Of a stretch of 64,000 nt of DNA, positions 6,826-52,899 are shown piece by piece. This DNA is from an uncultured Ignavibacteriales bacterium (GTDB taxonomy: Bacteria > Bacteroidota > Ignavibacteria > Ignavibacteriales > Ignavibacteriaceae). The stretch spans positions 1 through 64,000 of the forward strand of contig CAIYTF010000082.1 of the NCBI GenBank assembly GCA_903929035.1, given 5' to 3'. Position 1 is the stretch's first letter; each line of letters begins with the position of its first letter. The notes under the pieces are model-generated. The model saw only the letters and a program-made list of their open reading frames with translations, was not told where the DNA came from and ran no database searches. Both the position numbers and the translations under genes were made by a program.

Positions 6826-7695
6826 TTAAAAATACATTCTCATTTTCAGTGTTGGTGCATAATAGGAAATACCTTGTATGCTCTGTTTTTCCATAGATGA
6901 CTCTAACATAATTGATTTATTTTCCGTAACCGCGCCCCATACCGCATTTACCGCACTTAACACGTGATTTATATAAATGGCAATGACGGCTTTTGCGCTA
7001 TAATTGTAATAATCATTTGCCTTGCCGCGCATAATAGCGTAATTTAAAAAAGCCTGCGATACATTGTGGAAATCATCAGTTGGACCACCATTATAATCAT
7101 TCCACCCAGGACTATACTGCGGATATTTCCCTATTAACTCGTAATACTGCTGAAGTCCATATTGTTCGAGATGATGTGAAAAGTTTAATGAGTCTTCATA
7201 TTTATGAAGAATATTCCAATCTACCCGTTTCCAAGGGGGCAGAGTCATATTATTCTCAATCCAGCTAACATTTGACGAATCCCCTCCTATTTTATTTACC
7301 ATCCATTTTGCATATTTAACTGCACTCCACTGCTGATCCGCGACATTTTGAAACGCGGTTGTTTGCTTATCGCCTTTATTGTTATAAATTACTGCCACGC
7401 TAATTGCAGCAGCTTCAACCACGAAAAAAGCTGCTGCCTCATAATAATGTCCAGTATATAGTTCGCCTGCTCCAGGGATTACCAAAGACATTAGCCCTGC
7501 AAGCGCGGGGGATTTTCGTGTTCTTACTTCAGGCAAAATTTCAACCCTTTTTGCTGCAGGCTGTAACTTAGCAATTTCTCTTGAATCATACTGTAAATTA
7601 CCGGATAATCCGTTTTCCACTTGAGAATTTTCCTGAGCAATCATTTCCGAAACACAAAAAATTGACAGAATAAAAAAAACAATAAATAATCTCAT
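6826..7695 (-). CDS. DUF5683-like membrane/envelope protein
   Basis: Signal peptide; KSPALAGLMSLVIPGAGELYTGHYYEAAAFFVVEAA. Confidence 0.65.
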   Translation of the reverse strand: MRLFIVFFILSIFCVSEMIAQENSQVENGLSGNLQYDSREIAKLQPAAKRVEILPEVRTRKSPALAGLMSLVIPGAGELYTGHYYEAAAFFVVEAAAISVAVIYNNKGDKQTTAFQNVADQQWSAVKYAKWMVNKIGGDSSNVSWIENNMTLPPWKRVDWNILHKYEDSLNFSHHLEQYGLQQYYELIGKYPQYSPGWNDYNGGPTDDFHNVSQAFLNYAIMRGKANDYYNYSAKAVIAIYINHVLSAVNAVWGAVTENKSIMLESSMEKQSIQGISYYAPTLKMRMYF

Positions 7696-7710: not shown

Positions 7711-10700
7711 CTATAAATTAAAATCAAATAAAATGCCGCCATACAAACGAATTTCCTTACCATAAGTTATGACCTGCTTATTAACTGTTCTTTGAAATGA
7801 ATCAAACCCGTAAGAAGCATCAAAGAATATACTCGTTGGGAAAAGATAAAATGAATTAAGAGCAAAACGAATTTGGCTTCCTATACCCTTTTTGAAATCT
7901 TTAATCTTTGGATTGTTACCTGTCCAAGCATTTCCATAATCGCCATATACTGATAGGAAAATTTTATCCAGATAAAATGCGCCAAATTTGTAATCAATAT
8001 TTTGCAGTAGAGGGAAACGATACGCGATATTTAGCCACGCGACTTTGTTTCCGTTTATTGAATAGAAAGAATACTCTTTCATACCGACCAAACCGCCAAG
8101 ATAGAAATCGAAAAAATCCGGGGCAGTTAACCCCAGTATTGAGCCAAATCTCGTTTTTAATGTAAGAGTCGTTTGTCGAGTAAGTCTCAATGCGTGAAGC
8201 GCGGTCAATTCAACACGGTGAAAGTTGAAGTGATTATAATTCGGTTTATAAACTCCGTCCTCAACAGTATATTTCCCATCATTGTTAAAATTATTCAGTT
8301 CGTAATTATATTTTAACTCTATATAAGTACCAATAGGACTAATTTCTGAATTTATATACGGATGATATGAATCGAATCTATATGATATTTCAAAATTACT
8401 GCCAATAAGATATATATCACTAAATTCGGGAGAAAGAGAGCTTGTTCCCGGAAAAATAAAACTTCCTATTGCTGCTGAATACCTGCTGTAAGAATATCTA
8501 AAATTAATAAAATTGAACCGCGAGAGTACTTTATGTTTCGCGAGCAATGCCACTTCAAAAAGGTTATAAGTAACATCCGTGTTCGTACTCGGATATCCTT
8601 CAATAGTAACTTCAACTCCGGTCTTCCGGCTTATGCTATATACTTCAAGTCCTAATTCCGGTTTAATTCCTAAGTTAAAAAGCAATGGAAGTTTATCGCG
8701 GTAATCAAAAGAAAAAAAGGCATCTCTTTCCATACGGCTGTTAATCATAATGCCGCCAAAAATAGAATAGCGATTCAGCATATCGTTTGACGAAAAGTAA
8801 ACCCCCGGCTTAATATGCTGCATAAACGAGTTGGCTGTATTGTAGTTATCTACTCGAATTACAGGGAATACTGTCATCTTTGAAAATGCACCGGAATACT
8901 TTTCAACTTTATAATCGGGTGTTTTCGAGTCATCAAAACGGCGTAAATTATCAATCGCGAATTTTTGAATATCACAGTTTGGTTTATCCTCATCTAACGG
9001 CGGATTATCCTTTTTTATATATGTTTTCTTAATATCAACAATTGCTTGTTCCGCTGGAGAAACCGAGAATAGTTTATAGCCGCCTGAAGTATATCCTGCA
9101 TAGTATAGAGTGCCGTTATCAGCGAGGTACGGCATAAATGCACCGCCTCTCACGTTGGTTAATTGCTTCGATGCTTTCGTTGACAAATCAAACGAATAAA
9201 TATTATATATCCCTGACTTATCAGATGCATAAATAATTCTGCTGTCATCGGCAAAAATAGGATTTCGTTCATCATACTCTTGATTTAACAGGAAGTTGAA
9301 ACCTGTACCATCTGTATTTATAATCGCGATATCTCTGCCATTCAATAATGAATAATCAAATACAATTTTTTTGCCATCGGGAGAAAAGCGGGGGTTTGCT
9401 ATTTGCTCGCCATTCCCATACATAGTCAATTGCCGAAAATTCTTTCCTCCGCTGTCAACAACACCCAAATTAGATGTTCCGTCTTTCTCGAATATAAACG
9501 CGATAAGTGAACCATCATTGTTTATAGCAGGCTGATTTGCGCGCAAAGCATAAGTTAACCGGGTTTCTTTTTCCGTAACAACATCATATAAAAACAAATC
9601 GTGTACATTTGCAAAACCGGGATTATCTTCTGATAATTTTGCGAACAATAATTTATTTGTGTTTGGTACCCTATAAATTCCAGAGCGCACGCCCTTGAGT
9701 ACTAATTTTTCTTTGCCGGTTTTTGTATCAAGTAAATATGCGGCTGTCTGTCCTAAATAATCATTTCCTTTATTTGAAATAAACATAACATTCGCGGAAT
9801 CATAGGATGTAGGAAAAAAATTCCCAAAACCTTCAGCAAATATTTTTTGACCTTCAACCTGATTTGCGATAACATCTTTCATTCTCTCTTTATAGTCTTT
9901 CATTATGAATGAAGACCACTCACTGTATAACGCGTTGCCGGTTATCCCAAGCACATCCTTGCAGGCTGCATCGAAAGTGAAATTAAGCGTCTTTCCCAGA
10001 GCTTTTGTCAATTCGCGAATTTTGGCTTCGCCGTATTTTTGCGCGATATACCGAGTAAGTGCGAAACCTGAATTATACACTGATTCATTACCGAGACTGG
10101 TTTTCTCGAAAACACCCATCTGTTCCCAGCTAAGCATATTGCTGTCAAGCGCGTAAGACCTGAGAATCATATCACGGTGAGCGTCCCACCCGTCATATCC
10201 AAAATCTTTACGCGTATATTGCGCGGTTCCCTCAGCAAACCAAGCAGGCATATTCAGGAAAGCCAAGGGATATGATACAATAACATTTGGGTAGCCATAT
10301 AGGATATCGGGACGACGTTCGTCTTCATAATTTAACCATTGCAAATATACAGCTGGCACGGTACGGGTAGTTTTCATTGCCGCCTGAATTTGTACCATAT
10401 GAGTAAACTCGTGAGATATCACATTTCGAAGCCAATTGTGGAATCCTCTCAATTCAAAATCAAGGGCACTGCTCCAAATTTCAATTTTATTATCAAAGAA
10501 ATAAGTTGCTCCATTTGAATAGTCGTCAATATCTTTAATAACAAAATGAACAGTTTCAGGTTCATACTCATAAAGTGAAGTAATTGGTCCCCACACTTCA
10601 TCGGCAATTTTTGCAGCCACTTTCGCGGTTCTTTCTGCTCCCTCGTGAAAATGTACAACACAATGAGTTCCTTTAACGGAATACCAGTTCAGTTCAGGAT

Positions 10701-10773
10701 GAAACTCGGTGAACTGCGCTAATATATTTATTGAGCATAAAAAAACAATAGAACTAAGGATTCGTAATTTCAT
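7711..10773 (-). CDS. Secreted gluzincin-like peptidase + TolB-like propeller + C-terminal outer-membrane beta-barrel
   Basis: Signal peptide; VISHEFTHMVQ and MPAWFAEGTAQY (HExxH + E); TolB-type repeats (ANPRFSPDGKKIVFDYS, NPIFADDSRIIYASDKSGIYNIY); C-terminal BamA-like strands ending ...GGILFDFNL. Confidence 0.85.
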   Translation of the reverse strand: MKLRILSSIVFLCSINILAQFTEFHPELNWYSVKGTHCVVHFHEGAERTAKVAAKIADEVWGPITSLYEYEPETVHFVIKDIDDYSNGATYFFDNKIEIWSSALDFELRGFHNWLRNVISHEFTHMVQIQAAMKTTRTVPAVYLQWLNYEDERRPDILYGYPNVIVSYPLAFLNMPAWFAEGTAQYTRKDFGYDGWDAHRDMILRSYALDSNMLSWEQMGVFEKTSLGNESVYNSGFALTRYIAQKYGEAKIRELTKALGKTLNFTFDAACKDVLGITGNALYSEWSSFIMKDYKERMKDVIANQVEGQKIFAEGFGNFFPTSYDSANVMFISNKGNDYLGQTAAYLLDTKTGKEKLVLKGVRSGIYRVPNTNKLLFAKLSEDNPGFANVHDLFLYDVVTEKETRLTYALRANQPAINNDGSLIAFIFEKDGTSNLGVVDSGGKNFRQLTMYGNGEQIANPRFSPDGKKIVFDYSLLNGRDIAIINTDGTGFNFLLNQEYDERNPIFADDSRIIYASDKSGIYNIYSFDLSTKASKQLTNVRGGAFMPYLADNGTLYYAGYTSGGYKLFSVSPAEQAIVDIKKTYIKKDNPPLDEDKPNCDIQKFAIDNLRRFDDSKTPDYKVEKYSGAFSKMTVFPVIRVDNYNTANSFMQHIKPGVYFSSNDMLNRYSIFGGIMINSRMERDAFFSFDYRDKLPLLFNLGIKPELGLEVYSISRKTGVEVTIEGYPSTNTDVTYNLFEVALLAKHKVLSRFNFINFRYSYSRYSAAIGSFIFPGTSSLSPEFSDIYLIGSNFEISYRFDSYHPYINSEISPIGTYIELKYNYELNNFNNDGKYTVEDGVYKPNYNHFNFHRVELTALHALRLTRQTTLTLKTRFGSILGLTAPDFFDFYLGGLVGMKEYSFYSINGNKVAWLNIAYRFPLLQNIDYKFGAFYLDKIFLSVYGDYGNAWTGNNPKIKDFKKGIGSQIRFALNSFYLFPTSIFFDASYGFDSFQRTVNKQVITYGKEIRLYGGILFDFNL

Positions 10774-10794: not shown

Positions 10795-13700
10795 TTATTT
10801 AATGATTGCAACTTTAATGATTTTGTTGTTTTTCTTCCCCGAAATACCGACAGCCTCAAGATTTGCCAAATAAACACCGCTCTGAATATTTGTTACATCC
10901 CATTTAATCTCGTTATCATAACCGCCCTTGCCGCTTCCGGAAAGCTGCGCGACATAATCTCCTGCTAAATCAAAAACTTTAATTGATATTTTTGAATCTT
11001 CAGCTACATAGTATCGAAAATTTGTAAACCCGCCATAAACAGGATTTGGATAATTATATGTCCGCTCCATCGGCATAAATGTCAGAATACGATTTGACTT
11101 TGTTGTCAACACTGTACCTTTGCTGCCCATAACATCTGCTAAGGTTCCATTATACAAGATTTCTCCGCCCGGGGGAAATAAACTCCAAGAATAATACACT
11201 CCATTGGAGTCAATTGTAACACCGCGAAGGTCCGAGTTACTGCCCTTAAAAAATGAAAATTGAGAATTAGATAACCCATCTATGGCAATTGGTGAACTCG
11301 CGGATTCACTCCCGTCCTTAGCTGAAACGATATGAATTCCATTATCGCACATCGCGTAAATATCAACTGTATTGTTAGTCGGATTCAAAAAAGTTGATGG
11401 TTTAAATGCAGATAACATCACTTTATCGCTCAATGTTACAGGAAAATGATCTGCAATTGCACCTTGCAGGTTATAGGCATAGAGATGTGAATTTGTTTGA
11501 GCGAGAATGTATGGTGTACCATCGAGCAGTAAATCACTCACTGAAAAAGAGGAAATAGGGCTGTCGGCATTAATCGTAAATGATGAAGTCAACTTACCGT
11601 TGCTATTATAAACATCAAATTTATTGGAGGATGTAAGAACCACAAAAATATTGTCACCTGATAACATTTTAATACTATTAAAATCAATAGCTCGTCCCCG
11701 TGCATTTACAAGCCTTTGTTGGCTGTCAAAAACATAATATCGGGGGACATCGGTCTCATCAATCCGTTTTGCCAATGCAAAATATGGATTGCCATAAGCG
11801 GAAAGAGCAGTAATAGAAAAGCCCAAAGCGCAACTGTCAATAGATATAGGAAATCCTTGATATAGGTAGTTAAAATAATAGACTCTTCCTTTTGATGTTC
11901 CGAATAATACTCGCGGAGTACCTGAAATCGATGTGTCAATCAGTGGGTCAGCACTCACAATCTCACCTTGTTCCTTGGCAGCAGTTTGTGTTAGCGTAAG
12001 TGTCGGCAAGTCGAAGAAAGAAAACAATGAATCTATCGCACCAACAACCTTATCACCATACGAGACAATATTTTTTGAACTGAAATTTGGTACTGTTTTT
12101 TTTACTTCCAGATTTTGATTGCACACGACTAATGTTGTTCCGGAAAGAATTAAATTATAATTCAACCCATCTCTTTTTGAAACCACGACCTTGTTGCTTT
12201 TTGAAGGAAGTGAAAATTTGACAACAGTATCTTTCTTCACAGTTCCTGAAGTAGTCAGCAAAGAGAAAGAAATATACTCATCCGGTGCTGAAAAGTTTTT
12301 AAGCGTGATAAGACTATTAGAACCGGAATTTGCTTTTGTGCTGGGACGTGACGTTTGGTCAAAAATATTTCTGAATAGCTTTGCAGTGTTACCTTTATAC
12401 CATAAATCTTGGTCAGTACCTTCCCCAATAACCTGGTCACCAAAAATTGTATAGAATGTCTCACCGATATCCTGACTTCCGTCAGCTTCCATTACCACAA
12501 CTCCGCGGTGCTTTTTATCAGCATTAATTAAATTATCCGCGCGATTCGCCGCGATAATTGATTCATCTATATGCCATATAACCGCTCCATTACCGGGAGC
12601 AGCCCAGTCAGGTTCATCCACATCAACAACCACTCCGTAAAGTGAATCCACGCCATAACTATTGAAGCCGGTTGTATCATTAGGATACATTATAGTTTTA
12701 TATGCTCCATTGGAATAAATAGTCAATTTAACACCATCTGCATTTACATCACGCTGTTTGTTTTCAACCAGGAAATATTCACTTGATGTGATAGGGATTT
12801 TAATAATTGCAGTATCGGTTGGTCCGGCTTTTAATGAAGCACGTACGTGAAAAATGGCAGAATCCTTAATTCCGGCAACAATAGGGGTAGTCCACCCAAG
12901 GTCTATCCGTTCCCAAGCCCCGGGAGAGGGCGGGAACGCACCTCCGTAAGTAAATATGGATTGCCCATCCATCAAGCCAAATCTGCCGATTGCAGATAAT
13001 CCTGTTTTAGTGTCAAATAAATCCGGCAAGCCGAGGTGGCTGGCAATACTCGAAACCAATAACCCGTTGGTTGTTAATTGTAATAAGTACTTATTTCCAT
13101 ACGATTCTTGTTCTCTGTTTTCTGTTTGCGGCAGAATCATACTATTAGTGATATAAAAAGAATTTCCGGAAACAGGAACACCTTGAAAATTCGCACCCAA
13201 ATATTTTTTTAAGGATGAAGTCCCAAGATACACGGAAGGAATATCTAATTCATTACCAAGACTTCCGGGCAAGGATACATCCCTGCCGACACCCGCGTGA
13301 TAAATAGCGAACAAATCATATTTAGAAAAATCAAATCCCGTGTATGTGATGTCAGCCTTCGTCCAAACTTCTTTAACCATATTTGCGGTAGCTGTAAAAT
13401 CTGTTGACCGTACCCACGGCGAATACTTCCGCATTATTTGGGATAATTGCAGGCGAATCGGTAATACAGTGTATTCTATTTGCAAATTTCCGTTTGACAC
13501 ACGACTAAAATAGTTTTTAGCAAATAAAAGATGAGCCGCAAAATACGCGGAATCGTGAGGAAGCGGGTCAAGAATCTTTTGTCCGTAAACACCCGTATAA
13601 ATTGAATCCATCAATCCGTTGCCAATAGTCAATGCATCATTATCCTTTTGAAACTCAACCATCACCGCCAAAATTTTTACAGTTTTGGGCAGGCGACTTG

Positions 13701-13830
13701 GTCTGCTGCCTTTTAGCGTTGAAGATATTGTATATGCTGCATTTGTCTTTTGAGCTAATATGTTAATTGAACTTACTGAAAACAGTAAAAAAACAATGAC
13801 GGCTATTGAAGAACTCTTATTCATAAACAA
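10795..13830 (-). CDS. M6 metalloprotease-like protein with T9SS type A sorting domain; HExxH motif absent
   Basis: VSSIASHLGLPDLFDT...GRFGLMDG...PPSPGAWERIDLGW architecture of M6 proteases; C-terminal NYPNPVYGGFTNFRYYVAEDSKISIKVFDLAGDYV...IKVAIIK. Confidence 0.85.
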   Translation of the reverse strand: MFMNKSSSIAVIVFLLFSVSSINILAQKTNAAYTISSTLKGSRPSRLPKTVKILAVMVEFQKDNDALTIGNGLMDSIYTGVYGQKILDPLPHDSAYFAAHLLFAKNYFSRVSNGNLQIEYTVLPIRLQLSQIMRKYSPWVRSTDFTATANMVKEVWTKADITYTGFDFSKYDLFAIYHAGVGRDVSLPGSLGNELDIPSVYLGTSSLKKYLGANFQGVPVSGNSFYITNSMILPQTENREQESYGNKYLLQLTTNGLLVSSIASHLGLPDLFDTKTGLSAIGRFGLMDGQSIFTYGGAFPPSPGAWERIDLGWTTPIVAGIKDSAIFHVRASLKAGPTDTAIIKIPITSSEYFLVENKQRDVNADGVKLTIYSNGAYKTIMYPNDTTGFNSYGVDSLYGVVVDVDEPDWAAPGNGAVIWHIDESIIAANRADNLINADKKHRGVVVMEADGSQDIGETFYTIFGDQVIGEGTDQDLWYKGNTAKLFRNIFDQTSRPSTKANSGSNSLITLKNFSAPDEYISFSLLTTSGTVKKDTVVKFSLPSKSNKVVVSKRDGLNYNLILSGTTLVVCNQNLEVKKTVPNFSSKNIVSYGDKVVGAIDSLFSFFDLPTLTLTQTAAKEQGEIVSADPLIDTSISGTPRVLFGTSKGRVYYFNYLYQGFPISIDSCALGFSITALSAYGNPYFALAKRIDETDVPRYYVFDSQQRLVNARGRAIDFNSIKMLSGDNIFVVLTSSNKFDVYNSNGKLTSSFTINADSPISSFSVSDLLLDGTPYILAQTNSHLYAYNLQGAIADHFPVTLSDKVMLSAFKPSTFLNPTNNTVDIYAMCDNGIHIVSAKDGSESASSPIAIDGLSNSQFSFFKGSNSDLRGVTIDSNGVYYSWSLFPPGGEILYNGTLADVMGSKGTVLTTKSNRILTFMPMERTYNYPNPVYGGFTNFRYYVAEDSKISIKVFDLAGDYVAQLSGSGKGGYDNEIKWDVTNIQSGVYLANLEAVGISGKKNNKIIKVAIIK

Positions 13831-14009: not shown

Positions 14010-15191
14010 CTAAATTCCTCTTGGGATCCCGCGTTCATTATTGCCGCCCCAGCCGGCAGAAAATGTAAATCTCAAAGTATTTGAAAGCGGGTGGTTTTCT
14101 CTATCCTTGAAAACAGCCGTGGAAATATAGCTGAAATCAAAGCCATAAATATCATACCTAATTCCCGCACCCATAGTAACAAACTTCCTGTTGCCATAAG
14201 CCGGGTCTTCATAAAAGAAACCGCCGCGAACAGCAAACAAGAAATCTCCCGGCTGACCGTACCAATATTCCAAGCCCATCGTTGATACAACTTCACGAAC
14301 TTGCTCACTGAAAGGCTTATCTGACCATATTTTATATAATGCCTTATACCATTCTAAAGAAGAAGTCCCTTTCGATGAGTCACCGGCGACTACTATCAGT
14401 CTTGAGAAATCAAGAGTTGCAGTTAATGAATTGTAATCATCCTGCATAATCACATAAGCAAAGCCTAATCGAAGATTTGTAGGAATAGGATCAGCCTGAG
14501 CCCTATCAATATAAAAAATCTTTGGTCCTAAATTGCTCAAGTTCGCGCCAATACTAAGTCTTTTTCCAAAATCAATGTCTGTAAAAGGAATTCTAAGAGA
14601 AGAAGGTCTCCACATACCCGCTATATCAACACTGACGCTCGTTGCAACACCTGAACCTTTTTCTTGAGCAGTCGGTTGATCTGACAGACTGCTATGAATT
14701 ACTCGCAAATTCATTCCAACACCCCATTCAGAAGATATTTTTGTTGCATATCCAACTGTAACCGCGGCATCAAAAGAACGAAATGTGCCAATCGGATCAG
14801 GGTTATCAGGTCCAGTTCTGACAAATTCACCATAATTCATATACGTGATACTTCCCAGAATATTTCCATCTAATGCAGGAATGTAGTTTCTGTATGTAGC
14901 GTAGTCGTAAAACAAATCCAAGTGAAATTCAGGCAGCCAATTGCAGTGGGTAATAGAAAAATCTTGTCCTGTCAAAAACGCGGCACCGGCAGGATTCCAA
15001 AAACTTGCCGCTGAATTGTCGGAAAGTGCTGAACCAGATTCGCCCAGCGCGCTAAATCTTGAATCCGGTGCTAATTGTAGAAACGGGACTGCTGCCTGCC
15101 CGCCTTGGGCAACAACAAACTGCTGAAATCCTGCAGCGGCAAAAAGAACAAATATGATGAATTTAATTTGTGACATTAATGTACTCTCCAT
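14010..15191 (-). CDS. porV: Type IX secretion system outer-membrane protein PorV (FadL-like PorV/PorQ family)
   Basis: AVPFLQLAPDSRFSALGESGSALSDNSAASFWNPAGAAFL; likely true start at MSQIKFIIFVLF; adjacent to porU. Confidence 0.88.
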   Translation of the reverse strand: MESTLMSQIKFIIFVLFAAAGFQQFVVAQGGQAAVPFLQLAPDSRFSALGESGSALSDNSAASFWNPAGAAFLTGQDFSITHCNWLPEFHLDLFYDYATYRNYIPALDGNILGSITYMNYGEFVRTGPDNPDPIGTFRSFDAAVTVGYATKISSEWGVGMNLRVIHSSLSDQPTAQEKGSGVATSVSVDIAGMWRPSSLRIPFTDIDFGKRLSIGANLSNLGPKIFYIDRAQADPIPTNLRLGFAYVIMQDDYNSLTATLDFSRLIVVAGDSSKGTSSLEWYKALYKIWSDKPFSEQVREVVSTMGLEYWYGQPGDFLFAVRGGFFYEDPAYGNRKFVTMGAGIRYDIYGFDFSYISTAVFKDRENHPLSNTLRFTFSAGWGGNNERGIPRGI

Positions 15192-15229: not shown

Positions 15230-18200
15230 TTATCGGACTATCGCGAATTTTCCGGTAAGGTTTCTTGTACCTGCTCCGGATAATGAACTAACAATAAATT
15301 TATACAAATACACCCCGTTTGCTACCAAATTTCCTTCTTTATCTTTCCCATCCCAAGGAATTTTTATATTTCTTTCCGGAATATTTGCCCGTTCAATCCG
15401 GTGTAACAATCTGCCGGATGGCGAGTAAATATTAATTTTTACTTGTACGGGTGAGTCATTTATATCTGCCATAAACATAGTAGAACCAGAGAAAGGATTA
15501 GGGTAATTATATACATTCTCAACTAATAGACCTGCATCGCTGCTGACATTAAAGGTCACAAATTGTGAAGAAATATTGTTAAAAACATCAGAAGCTTGAA
15601 TCTTAAGTGTATGCTTGCCAGCGGATAAATTGTCAAATTTATAAATTACTTTTCCTGTTTTGCCGCCTGAATTGATATCGCCGTTGAAATAATTTGTAAA
15701 GTCTATTGGACTTGCTTCATTGCCATCAAGAATACCGCGCATCTGCCTGCCAAGTCCTGTGCCGGTTGCATTGATTCCTGTTTGATCGGAAATCAAAACA
15801 TACAAAGTTGAATTTGGTTTCACTAAATAGGCATCAGTACTTTCGGGATTGTCAAATGCTACTTTAATAATTGGTCCCGCCCCGTCATTTACCGCGGTAG
15901 TATCAGTTCCTCCAATAACAATATTGTTACTGAAAACAATTCCGTCAGAATTTTTGTTGAAAAAGTACAAAACCATCTTGCCATTCCGGTTTTCATACGA
16001 AATATCTTTAGGGACTATAAAATCAGCAGAAAAGACACCCGCGTTAATGCTAATTCGTCCTCTAAAAATAATTCCTCCCTGCAAATTATATGTATAAGAA
16101 GAATACTCACTAAACTCAGCTAATGATCTTAACTGCTGTGAATCATAGACTGTTAAAATGCCTTCACCTGTATAGTTCGTATCAATATATGCAGAATTAG
16201 CTTTCTGAATTTTCCCCTTAACAACAACTCGGCTAAGCGCGCTTATTCGTGCCTCGATCGCGGATGATTTACCATTAATTAAATCAATACTACCCGAAAG
16301 CTGCCCGAGATTAAGTCTAAGCATCGGGTCACAGAACAAATGATATTTCAGATCATTAACTTGATTCATATTTTTTTTTGCATAGAAATACAGCCTCCCG
16401 ATTGGGAAAGGAAGATTCATCGTATCGCGCTGTAACTGCAGCAATTTAGAATAAAATGCATTATTAATGGCAGAATTTTGTCCTGAATAAACCGGTCTGG
16501 TTGCCGAAAGCACACCTATTGCACCGCCATTTTCTTTCGATAGTAAATCTTCAGTAGCACTGACAGCATTTGGCCGATCGAAATAGCCAAAATCACAAGT
16601 GGCAGCAGTCAAAAAGAAATAATTATTGTTATTAAACGATGGAATTGTAATATCCTTTACAAACACTTGTTCGTGAGCCCAAAGATCAGGGCTGCCGTGT
16701 CCATAATAATTTAAAAGAAGTGTTCCTTCATTAACAGCGCGAATGATAGCATCATTCACCTCAGGCTTCCGCCTTCCGAAGCTGGTTATAAGCGTAGGAT
16801 AGTCCGCTAAATAAATTTTCTTTTGGTCAAAAGACTGTGGAATGTTTGAGGATAATTCTTCTGATCTGTCTGTATGTTCCGAGCCTTCGAATCCTTGAGA
16901 TGTCCATCCATCATCAGCAACTAAAGTAATTAGGTTTCTCCACGATGATATGTCTGACTTAGTTTCATAAGCTATAATTTTATCTACCGCGTTAGCTGCC
17001 TCAGCAGCATTACGAACCGGAATTCTCCCGATTGCTAAATCAATATAGAGGTCTTCACCGTCAACCCTTACAAAATAATCATCCGTGTTGTACGAATTAA
17101 TTTCCTGCAGTGACTCAACGGATTCATAAGGGAAAAGATAATTATTGTTAAAACCTTCAATATTACGATAGTCATAATCGCCGTGTCCAAACATTAGCAC
17201 GGAGGAGGGCCGAACTTTCCAATTTTTAAAAGCATATCTTAGATAATCCCGAAGTGCTGAAACATCTCTCTTCCCGCCTGAAAATTCGTTATAGATATCG
17301 TCTATTTTTACAACCATAGTAGAAACCGGAACTTTCGCTGTTGTAGATCTATAAATCGCGAGGCGATTTGCCTGTTCATAAAACTCATTTGGTGTAATTA
17401 TAACATATTCAGCACCATTGGACTCGCCGTGTAAATTTTGGTTTGGCATTTGCACAGGATTCTTTGGTGTTTTATATCCTGTCGCTCCAACTGCTGCATA
17501 CTTATAAGACATATTTGCAACTGTACTTCCCTGAAATTGGAATTCGCTGCCGCTCCATAAAGTGGGATTTGCTATCATCCGTACATTCGCTAAATCACTT
17601 ATGCTAAAAACTTTAATATCAGAACTCGAAAAATTGCTTAAATGGTATTCTGCACTGCCATTTAATAATGGTGAATAGAATATCAAATTATCCTGCAGCG
17701 GCTTTAGATCTCTTAGATAGGTAATTTCAAAATAATCTAAATACCCGTGCGTTGAAGGATCATTCGTATGAAATGTGAATCTTAACGAACTGTTATTATC
17801 AGGCAGACTGCCGGCATAATTAAATGAGCTTGTATCCGCGATAGCTATCGTATATGTATTTGGATCATAACCATAACCATCAACTATATGAGATAATAGT
17901 AACTGTCCTGACTCCTCTATATCTAACTTTGCACCTGCTGATGAAGCATTAGCAAATCGATATTTATATTGAACTGCCGAACCTTGAATTCTACCCTCAA
18001 GTTTAGTCAAATAGGTTCTGCTTGTTACCGACTGTAAAAACTCATCACCAAAAAAATCTCTTCCGCTTTTTCCAATATTAACTTTATCTACATCCCAATA
18101 GGCAAAGGCTGATGTTGATTCTGTAACGGTCGGGTTCGTGCTATTTACCGGATCCTCATTTTCCATCCGCTTCCCTTGGGAACCGCCTGCTGTTATCCAG

Positions 18201-19234
18201 CAATAGTTTACATTGGAATAATTATTTGTATAACGGCCATATTTTTTATTTAAAGAATCGTATTCCCAATAATTAGTGTTTGCAGCATAAAATATAATAT
18301 AATCCGAATTATCAAACTTGCCGTCACTCTCGCCTGAAATATAAACAGGTATTTCCTGAAGGTCATTTATTCTTGCCGCGGTTACAGAATCAGAAAGCGG
18401 TTTAGCACCATTGCAATATATTTTGATCGTGCGCGGGTCAACTGCAGCGGCATCAATGCCGAAAGAATTGAGCATACTATACGTAATCTTATAGATACCT
18501 TCTTCAGGAATTTCAAAACGCACCCATTTGCCGGTTGACAAAACAGAAGATGTTGGGGCTATTTTTTGCAAACCGCTGTTTGAAGATTTAATAAACTGTT
18601 TTGCCGCCTGATAATTAATAACCGCGTCTTTAAGAAGATTATCTTCCCTTGTTGAGCCTAAATTATTTATTCCATCGCGGAAAGTAACTTTAAATGTAAT
18701 GTTTTTATATATTCTGATTTTTCTTTCTACAGGATTACACTGTATAGGATTTACTTTCACATCAACCACCGGCATATTTCTAATACTGCCCGAGTTTGAA
18801 ATTACTGCTAAGTTTTCAGGAAAATATTTTTGAACCGCGTAAATAGGACCTGGTTTATATTCATCAATTTGCATAGCCCCCGACTTTTTGATTGCTGCAA
18901 CAGGCGGAAGCACTCCTGTTGATTCATCATAGACAGAAGAAATTATTTCTACGGATACACCTTCTATATTTGGAACACCGACAGTAAATAATCGTGAAAG
19001 TGTTTCAATTTCACCGGGTTTTTGATATTCGCTGCCTCCCTCAAGCAACGTGATATAGCTATACTCCTCTGAACCAATAGTACGCTTAGATATTTTTGAA
19101 ATATGTGGAATATATTGAACAGTAACTTGATTTGCCGATGAAGACAAAACCTTATAGTCACTCTGCCCGTAAAGCGAAAGCACGGTAAGCACTAAAAAAA
19201 TTACCGAAAAAAATATAGAGAATTTGCTATGCAT
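15230..19234 (-). CDS. porU: Type IX secretion system sortase PorU (C25 gingipain-like)
   Basis: C25 domain with LLNYYGHGSPDLWAHE (His) and FFLTAATCDFGYFDRP (Cys); C-terminal FlgD/T9SS-like NYPNPFSGSTMF. Confidence 0.9.
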   Translation of the reverse strand: MHSKFSIFFSVIFLVLTVLSLYGQSDYKVLSSSANQVTVQYIPHISKISKRTIGSEEYSYITLLEGGSEYQKPGEIETLSRLFTVGVPNIEGVSVEIISSVYDESTGVLPPVAAIKKSGAMQIDEYKPGPIYAVQKYFPENLAVISNSGSIRNMPVVDVKVNPIQCNPVERKIRIYKNITFKVTFRDGINNLGSTREDNLLKDAVINYQAAKQFIKSSNSGLQKIAPTSSVLSTGKWVRFEIPEEGIYKITYSMLNSFGIDAAAVDPRTIKIYCNGAKPLSDSVTAARINDLQEIPVYISGESDGKFDNSDYIIFYAANTNYWEYDSLNKKYGRYTNNYSNVNYCWITAGGSQGKRMENEDPVNSTNPTVTESTSAFAYWDVDKVNIGKSGRDFFGDEFLQSVTSRTYLTKLEGRIQGSAVQYKYRFANASSAGAKLDIEESGQLLLSHIVDGYGYDPNTYTIAIADTSSFNYAGSLPDNNSSLRFTFHTNDPSTHGYLDYFEITYLRDLKPLQDNLIFYSPLLNGSAEYHLSNFSSSDIKVFSISDLANVRMIANPTLWSGSEFQFQGSTVANMSYKYAAVGATGYKTPKNPVQMPNQNLHGESNGAEYVIITPNEFYEQANRLAIYRSTTAKVPVSTMVVKIDDIYNEFSGGKRDVSALRDYLRYAFKNWKVRPSSVLMFGHGDYDYRNIEGFNNNYLFPYESVESLQEINSYNTDDYFVRVDGEDLYIDLAIGRIPVRNAAEAANAVDKIIAYETKSDISSWRNLITLVADDGWTSQGFEGSEHTDRSEELSSNIPQSFDQKKIYLADYPTLITSFGRRKPEVNDAIIRAVNEGTLLLNYYGHGSPDLWAHEQVFVKDITIPSFNNNNYFFLTAATCDFGYFDRPNAVSATEDLLSKENGGAIGVLSATRPVYSGQNSAINNAFYSKLLQLQRDTMNLPFPIGRLYFYAKKNMNQVNDLKYHLFCDPMLRLNLGQLSGSIDLINGKSSAIEARISALSRVVVKGKIQKANSAYIDTNYTGEGILTVYDSQQLRSLAEFSEYSSYTYNLQGGIIFRGRISINAGVFSADFIVPKDISYENRNGKMVLYFFNKNSDGIVFSNNIVIGGTDTTAVNDGAGPIIKVAFDNPESTDAYLVKPNSTLYVLISDQTGINATGTGLGRQMRGILDGNEASPIDFTNYFNGDINSGGKTGKVIYKFDNLSAGKHTLKIQASDVFNNISSQFVTFNVSSDAGLLVENVYNYPNPFSGSTMFMADINDSPVQVKINIYSPSGRLLHRIERANIPERNIKIPWDGKDKEGNLVANGVYLYKFIVSSLSGAGTRNLTGKFAIVR

Positions 19235-51243: not shown

Positions 51244-52899
51244 TCATTTCATTAAGAGCAATTTCTTAACAGATTTAAATTTCTCTGTATGAATTTGATA
51301 GAAATAAACTCCCGAACTCATATTCAACGCGTTCCACGTGATTTCGTGATAACCGGCTTCCATTGGTCCGTTCACAAGGTTTGCAACCTGCTCACCAATT
51401 TGGTTATATATGGTTAAACGTACATAGGCATTATCGGGAAGCCCGAAGCGAATTATTGTTGCAGGGTTAAATGGATTTGGATAGTTTTGTAATAATTCAT
51501 AAGCAAGCGGCTTTGTTATCTTACTCACTTCGATAGATGTAATATTTTCGTTTGAGATAACGATTGATGAACCTGCTTTTACTATTTTGTTTATCAGTTT
51601 GCCGGTAACTTTGTCTTTTATTAACAAATCAATTCCTTCTGCTTGAACTTCAACAGGGTAGGTCGCGCTGCTGATAGAAATAACTTTTGCAGGACTGTCC
51701 AAGTTTTCAACTAAAGATTGTGATGCAAACCTTGCATCAAATATTCCTGATGGCGGAACCGGCGGCAGCTGGTATTTGCTAAGGTCTTGAGCAGCCGTGG
51801 AAAAATAAAGACTTGATTTATTGCCAGCTGCATCACTCAACCGTACTGAACTCCATTTAGAATCAATGACCGGAGCTGCTGCAGAAACATTTTTAAATAG
51901 TGCAGCCGATAAAGTCAGCACGCCCGCGGCAGAGGCTCGAACCCAGTAACCTTTACCGCTCTGTAAAGATGTGGCGGTTGAATAGCCATTATTGAAGCCA
52001 TAGAATAATGAATTAATTATTCCTGCAGGAGTGGTTGTAAATGCAGATACCGGAACATCATTCTCATAAGCTGATATTATATTCCATCCTTCGGAAAGAG
52101 CAACTGTTAGCTGGCTTACTTGAGTACCGCAAATCTTTATGGCTGCATTGGGATAACGAACCCAATAGCCTTTGCTTGGAACCACAGCGGCAACAATAGT
52201 ATATCTGCCATTGTAACCATATACTTGAGATGTTGCTGATGGTAATAGTGCTGCAACAGTCATATCAGAAGCATTCACCGGAACACCAAATATGTTCCAA
52301 CCAGATATAAATGAAACATCTTTGCACAGCTCAGTAGTAATAGGTACATCATCAAAGAAAGTACAGTTTGAAGTAATTACAGCATTTGTTGTTCCGATAT
52401 AAGACGTTATGTTAGTGTATGGAGTTACAGTGGGCTTACGAAATACCATATTCAAAGTCTCAGCAGATGCAAAACCCGCGTGACAATTAATGGAAACCTT
52501 CATTACCATTACAGAGTCACCTGCCGGAATTATTTGCCCGTTACCTGCTCCCTGAGTAGAATTAGAAGCAAAACGAAATTGACAGGGAGTTGAATCGGTG
52601 TAAACAGTTGGATTTTCTGGTTGAAATGCCGTTGTTAATCCGCTGGAAAGTATTGATAATGTCGCGATCCCATTTAAATATGCTTTGTTAAAGTCCCAAA
52701 AATATTGACCCGCGGCATATTCGATCGAACTGGCCGATACGTTTTTAAACCATACCTCGAATGTAACAGTAGAGTCATTGACTTTTGCAGTTTTAATGAC
52801 TCTAAGTGTTGTTGCCGGTAATTGAGCATACACGACTGAACTATTTACAGTGAGAGTTATTAGAATTGCTGAAAGTAACAAAAAGAAACTTTTTTTCAT
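51244..52899 (-). CDS. Secreted protein with cohesin-like N-terminus and T9SS type A sorting domain
   Basis: Signal peptide; C-terminal LLQNYPNPFNPATIIRFGLPDNAYVRLTIYNQIGEQV...GVYFYQIHTEKFKSVKKLLLMK. Confidence 0.88.
   Translation of the reverse strand: MKKSFFLLLSAILITLTVNSSVVYAQLPATTLRVIKTAKVNDSTVTFEVWFKNVSASSIEYAAGQYFWDFNKAYLNGIATLSILSSGLTTAFQPENPTVYTDSTPCQFRFASNSTQGAGNGQIIPAGDSVMVMKVSINCHAGFASAETLNMVFRKPTVTPYTNITSYIGTTNAVITSNCTFFDDVPITTELCKDVSFISGWNIFGVPVNASDMTVAALLPSATSQVYGYNGRYTIVAAVVPSKGYWVRYPNAAIKICGTQVSQLTVALSEGWNIISAYENDVPVSAFTTTPAGIINSLFYGFNNGYSTATSLQSGKGYWVRASAAGVLTLSAALFKNVSAAAPVIDSKWSSVRLSDAAGNKSSLYFSTAAQDLSKYQLPPVPPSGIFDARFASQSLVENLDSPAKVISISSATYPVEVQAEGIDLLIKDKVTGKLINKIVKAGSSIVISNENITSIEVSKITKPLAYELLQNYPNPFNPATIIRFGLPDNAYVRLTIYNQIGEQVANLVNGPMEAGYHEITWNALNMSSGVYFYQIHTEKFKSVKKLLLMK

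Follow-up and report, generated by a model that had tools for sequence, protein, structure and literature searches.

The window, a stretch of 64,000 nucleotides, contains on its minus strand an open reading frame at positions 10795–13830 that matched the NCBIfam equivalog model NF052323 (T9SSA_dep_M6i) with a score of 858.6 bits (cut-off 600) over positions 4–1043 of the 1043-position profile. The encoded protein, a T9SS-dependent M6-like inactivated metalloprotease, is referred to here as M6i, and its nearest named relatives were found in metagenome bins of Ignavibacteriales and Ignavibacteriaceae. The genes described around it are also on the minus strand. Immediately upstream of M6i is the gene for PorV, the outer-membrane shuttle barrel (14010–15191; PF19572, 111 bits; NF033709, 296 bits), whose score with NF033710 was slightly below the cut-off (239 bits against 250). 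Beyond it lies the gene for the PorU sortase (15230–19234; NF033707, 934 bits, cut-off 420). Both catalytic motifs of PorU, with the His (GHGS) and the Cys (ATCDFG), were present, as an earlier reading of the letters and translations (the sequence-only reading) had noted.

On the other side of M6i, a gene at 7711–10773 encodes an MA-clan HEFTH metalloprotease-like protein (MA protein) that also has a TolB-type propeller and, near its C-terminus, a barrel-like stretch. It matched PF13485 (E = 5.8e-6; 26.7 bits, below the cut-off of 32.4 bits), PF07676, and, weakly, a BamA model (E = 0.03), and no named family was matched over its cut-off by the MA protein as a whole. The next conserved neighbor encodes a DUF5683-like protein (6826–7695; PF18935, E = 2.6e-4, below the cut-off).

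M6i consists of 1011 amino acid residues when translated from the called TTG codon at 13830 and of 1009 residues when translated from the ATG codon at 13824. The ATG start (MNKSSSIAV...) is probably the correct one, because it gives a better signal-peptide fit. The N-terminus was judged hydrophobic by reading of the sequence, and a signal peptide was predicted in the MNKSSSIAVIVFLLFSVSSINILAQ region (13750–13824), for which the structural model shows a hydrophobic helix at residues 7–23. The rest of the protein comprises a pseudo-M6 domain (residues 44–536; 12223–13701), a beta-propeller (about residues 531–915; 11086–12240), and a T9SS type A C-terminal sorting domain (about residues 924–1011; 10798–11061). 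The propeller was recognized from strands in the model, from a single-domain fold match to the N-terminal domain of BBS1, which has a propeller fold (TMt 0.62–0.66), and from FG-GAP matches found in 13 of 46 orthologs; it is poorly conserved and varies strongly between orthologs. The sorting domain scored above both cut-offs (TIGR04183, 30.9 bits against 23; PF18962, 30.6 bits against 27), and the full-length frame with a T9SS sorting domain, proposed from the sequence alone, is real. Another T9SS sorting domain is encoded in the window at 51283–51546 on the minus strand, within a frame of 558 amino acid residues.

Fold and zinc site of the pseudo-M6 domain

The AlphaFold2 (AF2) model of full-length M6i had a pLDDT of 88.1. 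A fold comparison was needed because no solved structure was matched directly by the M6i sequence. The fold search with the full-length model was dominated by propellers, and the M6 domain was therefore modeled alone (pLDDT 91.4). The only significant PDB matches found by Foldseek for this domain were chains of the Bacillus InhA2 zymogen (4yu6 and 4yu5), with E-values of 8.6e-15 to 1.7e-13. Profile-profile comparison by hhalign with 25 M6 proteins from the same phylum that have HExxH also gave a match over the full domain (probability 99.95, E = 5e-38). In this alignment, HEFGHMLGLPDMYD of the M6 proteins was placed onto SSIASHLGLPDLFD of M6i, with H-E-x-x-H sitting over S-S-I-A-S. The score of M6i with the M6 peptidase model TIGR03296 was below the cut-off (50.9 against 110.8).

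In M6 peptidases, two His residues and an Asp residue serve as the first, second, and third zinc ligands, and the Glu residue acts as the general base. Residues 255–274 of M6i read NGLLVSSIASHLGLPDLFDT, and the HExxHxxGxxD frame of M6 corresponds to SSIASHLGLPD. The degenerated HExxH is thus SSIAS at residues 260–264 (S260–S264; 13039–13053), exactly where the sequence-only reading had located the replacement of both His residues and the Glu residue. That part of its claim stood, as did the retention of the flanking LGLPDL, GLMDG (including the Met), and PGAWERIDLGW; as a refinement, the third-ligand position, the Asp of GLPD (D270; 13021–13023), is retained in all 101 orthologs compared. When the whole M6i protein of the window was scanned, no HExxH was found at any position.

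To define the distribution of the altered site, 298 genomes of the phylum were searched with NF052323, which yielded 112 homologs scoring above the cut-off and another five that scored lower but could be aligned; 101 of these, from dozens of genera and including the window protein, were aligned. HExxH was present at the site in none of the 101 M6i orthologs and in all of the 25 further M6-domain proteins found in the phylum. The first His was replaced by Ala in 87 orthologs, Ser in 9, Gly in 4, and Asn in 1; the Glu by Ser in 63, Asn in 20, Thr in 8, Gln in 7, Met in 2, and Ile in 1; and the second His by Ser in 79, Asn in 21, and Gly in 1. Residues 255–300 had a conservation score of 3.40, compared with a domain mean of 2.41, and ranked 11th of 448 windows. 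Between close pairs of M6i genes, pN was 0.14–0.23 and pS was 0.58–0.78, and the frames were open. Judged from these comparisons of sequences, the altered site is a stable, selected pseudo-site, because the loss of HExxH is family-wide, the replacements are conserved, and pN is far below pS. A sequencing error or a recent loss in a single lineage can be dismissed with near certainty, as the loss is common to all 101 orthologs, their frames are open, and pN is much lower than pS, and no point in favor of such an origin was found. A stray HEMAH was observed in the homolog at locus L114, near the start of the frame and far from the zinc site.

M6i shares with the M6 peptidases (immune inhibitor A; TIGR03296/PF05547) the fold, the HExxHxxGxxD frame, the third-ligand Asp, and GLMDG, and differs from them in the extra propeller, the T9SS sorting domain, and the absence of the HExxH with its general-base Glu that an active M6 peptidase carries. 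It matches the NF052323 family over its full length with no structural difference: M6 homology without HExxH and a type A sorting domain were both found, and all 46 scanned M6i orthologs matched the model. The suggestion of a pseudoprotease carrying a T9SS sorting domain is therefore well supported by the missing HExxH across the orthologs, the M6/InhA fold, and the word 'inactivated' in the NCBIfam name. Because NF052323 had already been named 'T9SS-dependent M6-like inactivated metalloprotease', the pseudoprotease family itself is not new. What appears to be new is its fixed linkage to porV and its survival after the loss of PorU, which were found stated in no accessible source. No paper on the function of M6i, or on any T9SS-linked M6 protein or pseudoprotease, was found in the open-access literature.

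Linkage to porV and genomes lacking PorU

M6i is present as a single copy across many families. The fetched stretch of DNA included porV for 99 of the 101 M6i loci, and in all 99, porV lay directly upstream of M6i in the same orientation, less than 500 bp away. PorU adjoins porV in most M6i loci, and the DUF5683-like gene was found in 84 of the 101. The pairwise identities of M6i tracked those of PorU (Mantel r = 0.935), the MA protein (0.887), and PorV (0.867), correlations that would be expected under joint vertical inheritance.

M6i was missing in the Bacteroidia-type genomes, as well as in several families of the same class in which PorU and PorV occur, and no conserved gene was seen to replace it after porV in the relatives lacking it. 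Since the M6i cluster is missing from many genomes with PorU and PorV, it is a lineage-specific addition rather than a universal part of the T9SS. At two loci (L190 and L192, in genomes G152 and G255), the DUF5683 gene directly follows porV, and M6i and the HEFTH gene are cleanly gone.

Nine genomes of one family (G061, G081, G108, G120, G176, G207, G239, G271, and G279; loci L110–L118) lacked PorU and retained SprA, PorV, an intact M6i, and the MA protein. PorZ had no match in eight of them and a weak match in G279. PorU2 (NF052324) was considered as a substitute for PorU and gave no match in the nine genomes. A second PorU-like protein was observed in the genome to which the window belongs (L174; G000, C87, 10192–12735), with 383 bits for NF052324 (cut-off 450) and a frame of 1787 amino acid residues. 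The nine PorU-less genomes encode 7–32 proteins with a type A C-terminal domain (CTD) despite having no sortase; of four relatives that have PorU, three encode 61–97 such proteins and one (G160) encodes 14.

Relative to rpe, M6i evolves at a rate of 1.72 in the PorU-less genomes, compared with 1.69 in those members of their family that have PorU. A relaxation of constraint on M6i following the loss of PorU, hinted at by a few M6i/PorV distance pairs, was ruled out with rpe as the clock. The retention of M6i in these genomes indicates that its job is done without need for the sortase. Four further PorU-less genomes had lost M6i and the MA protein at the porV locus and kept PorV and SprA, which indicates that M6i is lost before the translocon and the shuttle. 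The nine PorU-less genomes with M6i make its role separable from the sortase reaction, and the question experimentally approachable.

Possible role at the PorV stage

The handling of T9SS cargo at the cell surface is known mostly through Porphyromonas and Flavobacterium. PorU and PorZ of Porphyromonas are in their turn substrates of the T9SS and retain their CTDs uncleaved, PorU being held by PorV and PorZ by PorQ (PMC10202324, PMC5562754, PMC8545088). In Flavobacterium, the genes of type B substrates often lie beside that of their specific shuttle barrel (PMC12618676). By analogy, a protein with a sorting domain whose gene follows porV directly in many families would most simply be a partner of PorV. 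M6i would be exported through SprA, and its sorting domain would be captured by PorV and probably kept there, as PorU is by PorV and PorZ by PorQ. The pseudo-protease cleft and the propeller may then have a binding partner at the surface, for which emerging cargo or a surface glycan is the most plausible candidate, so that M6i would serve the PorV step of the pathway and not the sortase reaction. As to whether PorU cleaves M6i, no signal was obtained either way for a conserved cleavage site before the CTD; a [TEDN][GAS] pair was present in 47 of 94 orthologs.

We infer, with a probability of roughly one half, that M6i belongs to the secretion system as a binding component, exposed at the surface, associated with PorV, and of a kind comparable to PorU and PorZ. 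The sequence-only reading had left the choice between a generic surface binder and a T9SS accessory factor; genomic context favors the latter, as the position after porV and the vertical co-inheritance with PorU and PorV suggest. In Ignavibacteria-type and related Bacteroidota, the fixed occurrence of a conserved pseudoprotease next to porV points to a surface component that is missing from the Porphyromonas and Flavobacterium models, and, as a dead protease, M6i would be a further case of a catalytic fold retained for binding. A more far-reaching version, which we put forward only tentatively, is that M6i is an unrecognized, lineage-specific T9SS component of the PorV stage that works upstream and independently of PorU, with the cleft as a receptor for cargo leaving SprA, and that the PorU-less bacteria still use it for the display or release of type A cargo.

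Like M6i, PorZ (the A-LPS carrier of the attachment complex; PF21544, NF052228) is a surface protein with a propeller, a T9SS sorting domain, and a tie to the T9SS, and its own CTD is unprocessed (PMC8545088, PMC10202324). Unlike M6i, it contains two propellers and lacks an M6 domain. Replacement of PorZ by M6i was ruled out, since most genomes with M6i also have PorZ (PF21544), encoded by its own gene. PF21544 had no match in the M6i of the window or in the 46 members scanned, and NF052228 reached 1e-5 in five of these members, probably owing to the sorting domain that both families have. PorU resembles M6i as a protease-fold protein with a T9SS sorting domain and a gene beside porV; it is a C25 cysteine protease of unrelated fold with its catalytic His and Cys present, and M6i outlasts its loss.

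Several observations speak against such a PorV-associated component: several families bearing PorU and PorV lack M6i, so that it is not a general T9SS need, the four genomes mentioned above dropped it and kept PorV and SprA, and the propeller is variable. The first and the last of these would also fit an ordinary T9SS cargo, that is, a surface pseudo-enzyme such as an adhesin or glycan binder that rides in the porU-porV operon and has no part in the secretion machine, and the type A sorting domain of M6i is like those of the other T9SS cargo of the genome, which had 55 TIGR04183 matches. A single-copy gene with a fixed place after porV in many families would be unusual for cargo, however, as would retention after the loss of PorU, when the number of type A cargo proteins fell, and we consider this explanation possible but rather unlikely.

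The downstream gene offers another partner. The HEFTH gene was found in 88 of the 101 M6i loci, in 82 of them downstream with a gap of less than 500 bp, and it disappeared together with M6i from the porV loci of the four PorV-keeping genomes. The HEFTH proteins look active: HExxH was found in 86 of the 88, and the remaining two were over-long stop-to-stop frames of which the first 300 residues were scanned. M6i might accordingly be a regulatory or prosegment-like partner that localizes or inhibits this protease or presents substrate to it. We regard this as improbable, because 13 loci, counted at the locus only, have no such neighbor, the link of M6i to PorV is tighter, and the rate of the MA protein relative to rpe is higher in PorU-less than in PorU-bearing genomes (1.61 vs. 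1.19), whereas that of M6i is not.

A binding component at the PorV stage remains the reading we prefer. Retained enzymatic activity of M6i, with Asp270 and further conserved residues supporting some other chemistry or another metal site, is very unlikely: Asp270, His178, and several Asp and Glu residues are near-invariant, but none of the members compared has kept either His ligand or the general-base Glu of the known M6 mechanism, and the segment containing His178 (HAG) also occurs in an intact M6 protein, which indicates that His178 was not newly gained.
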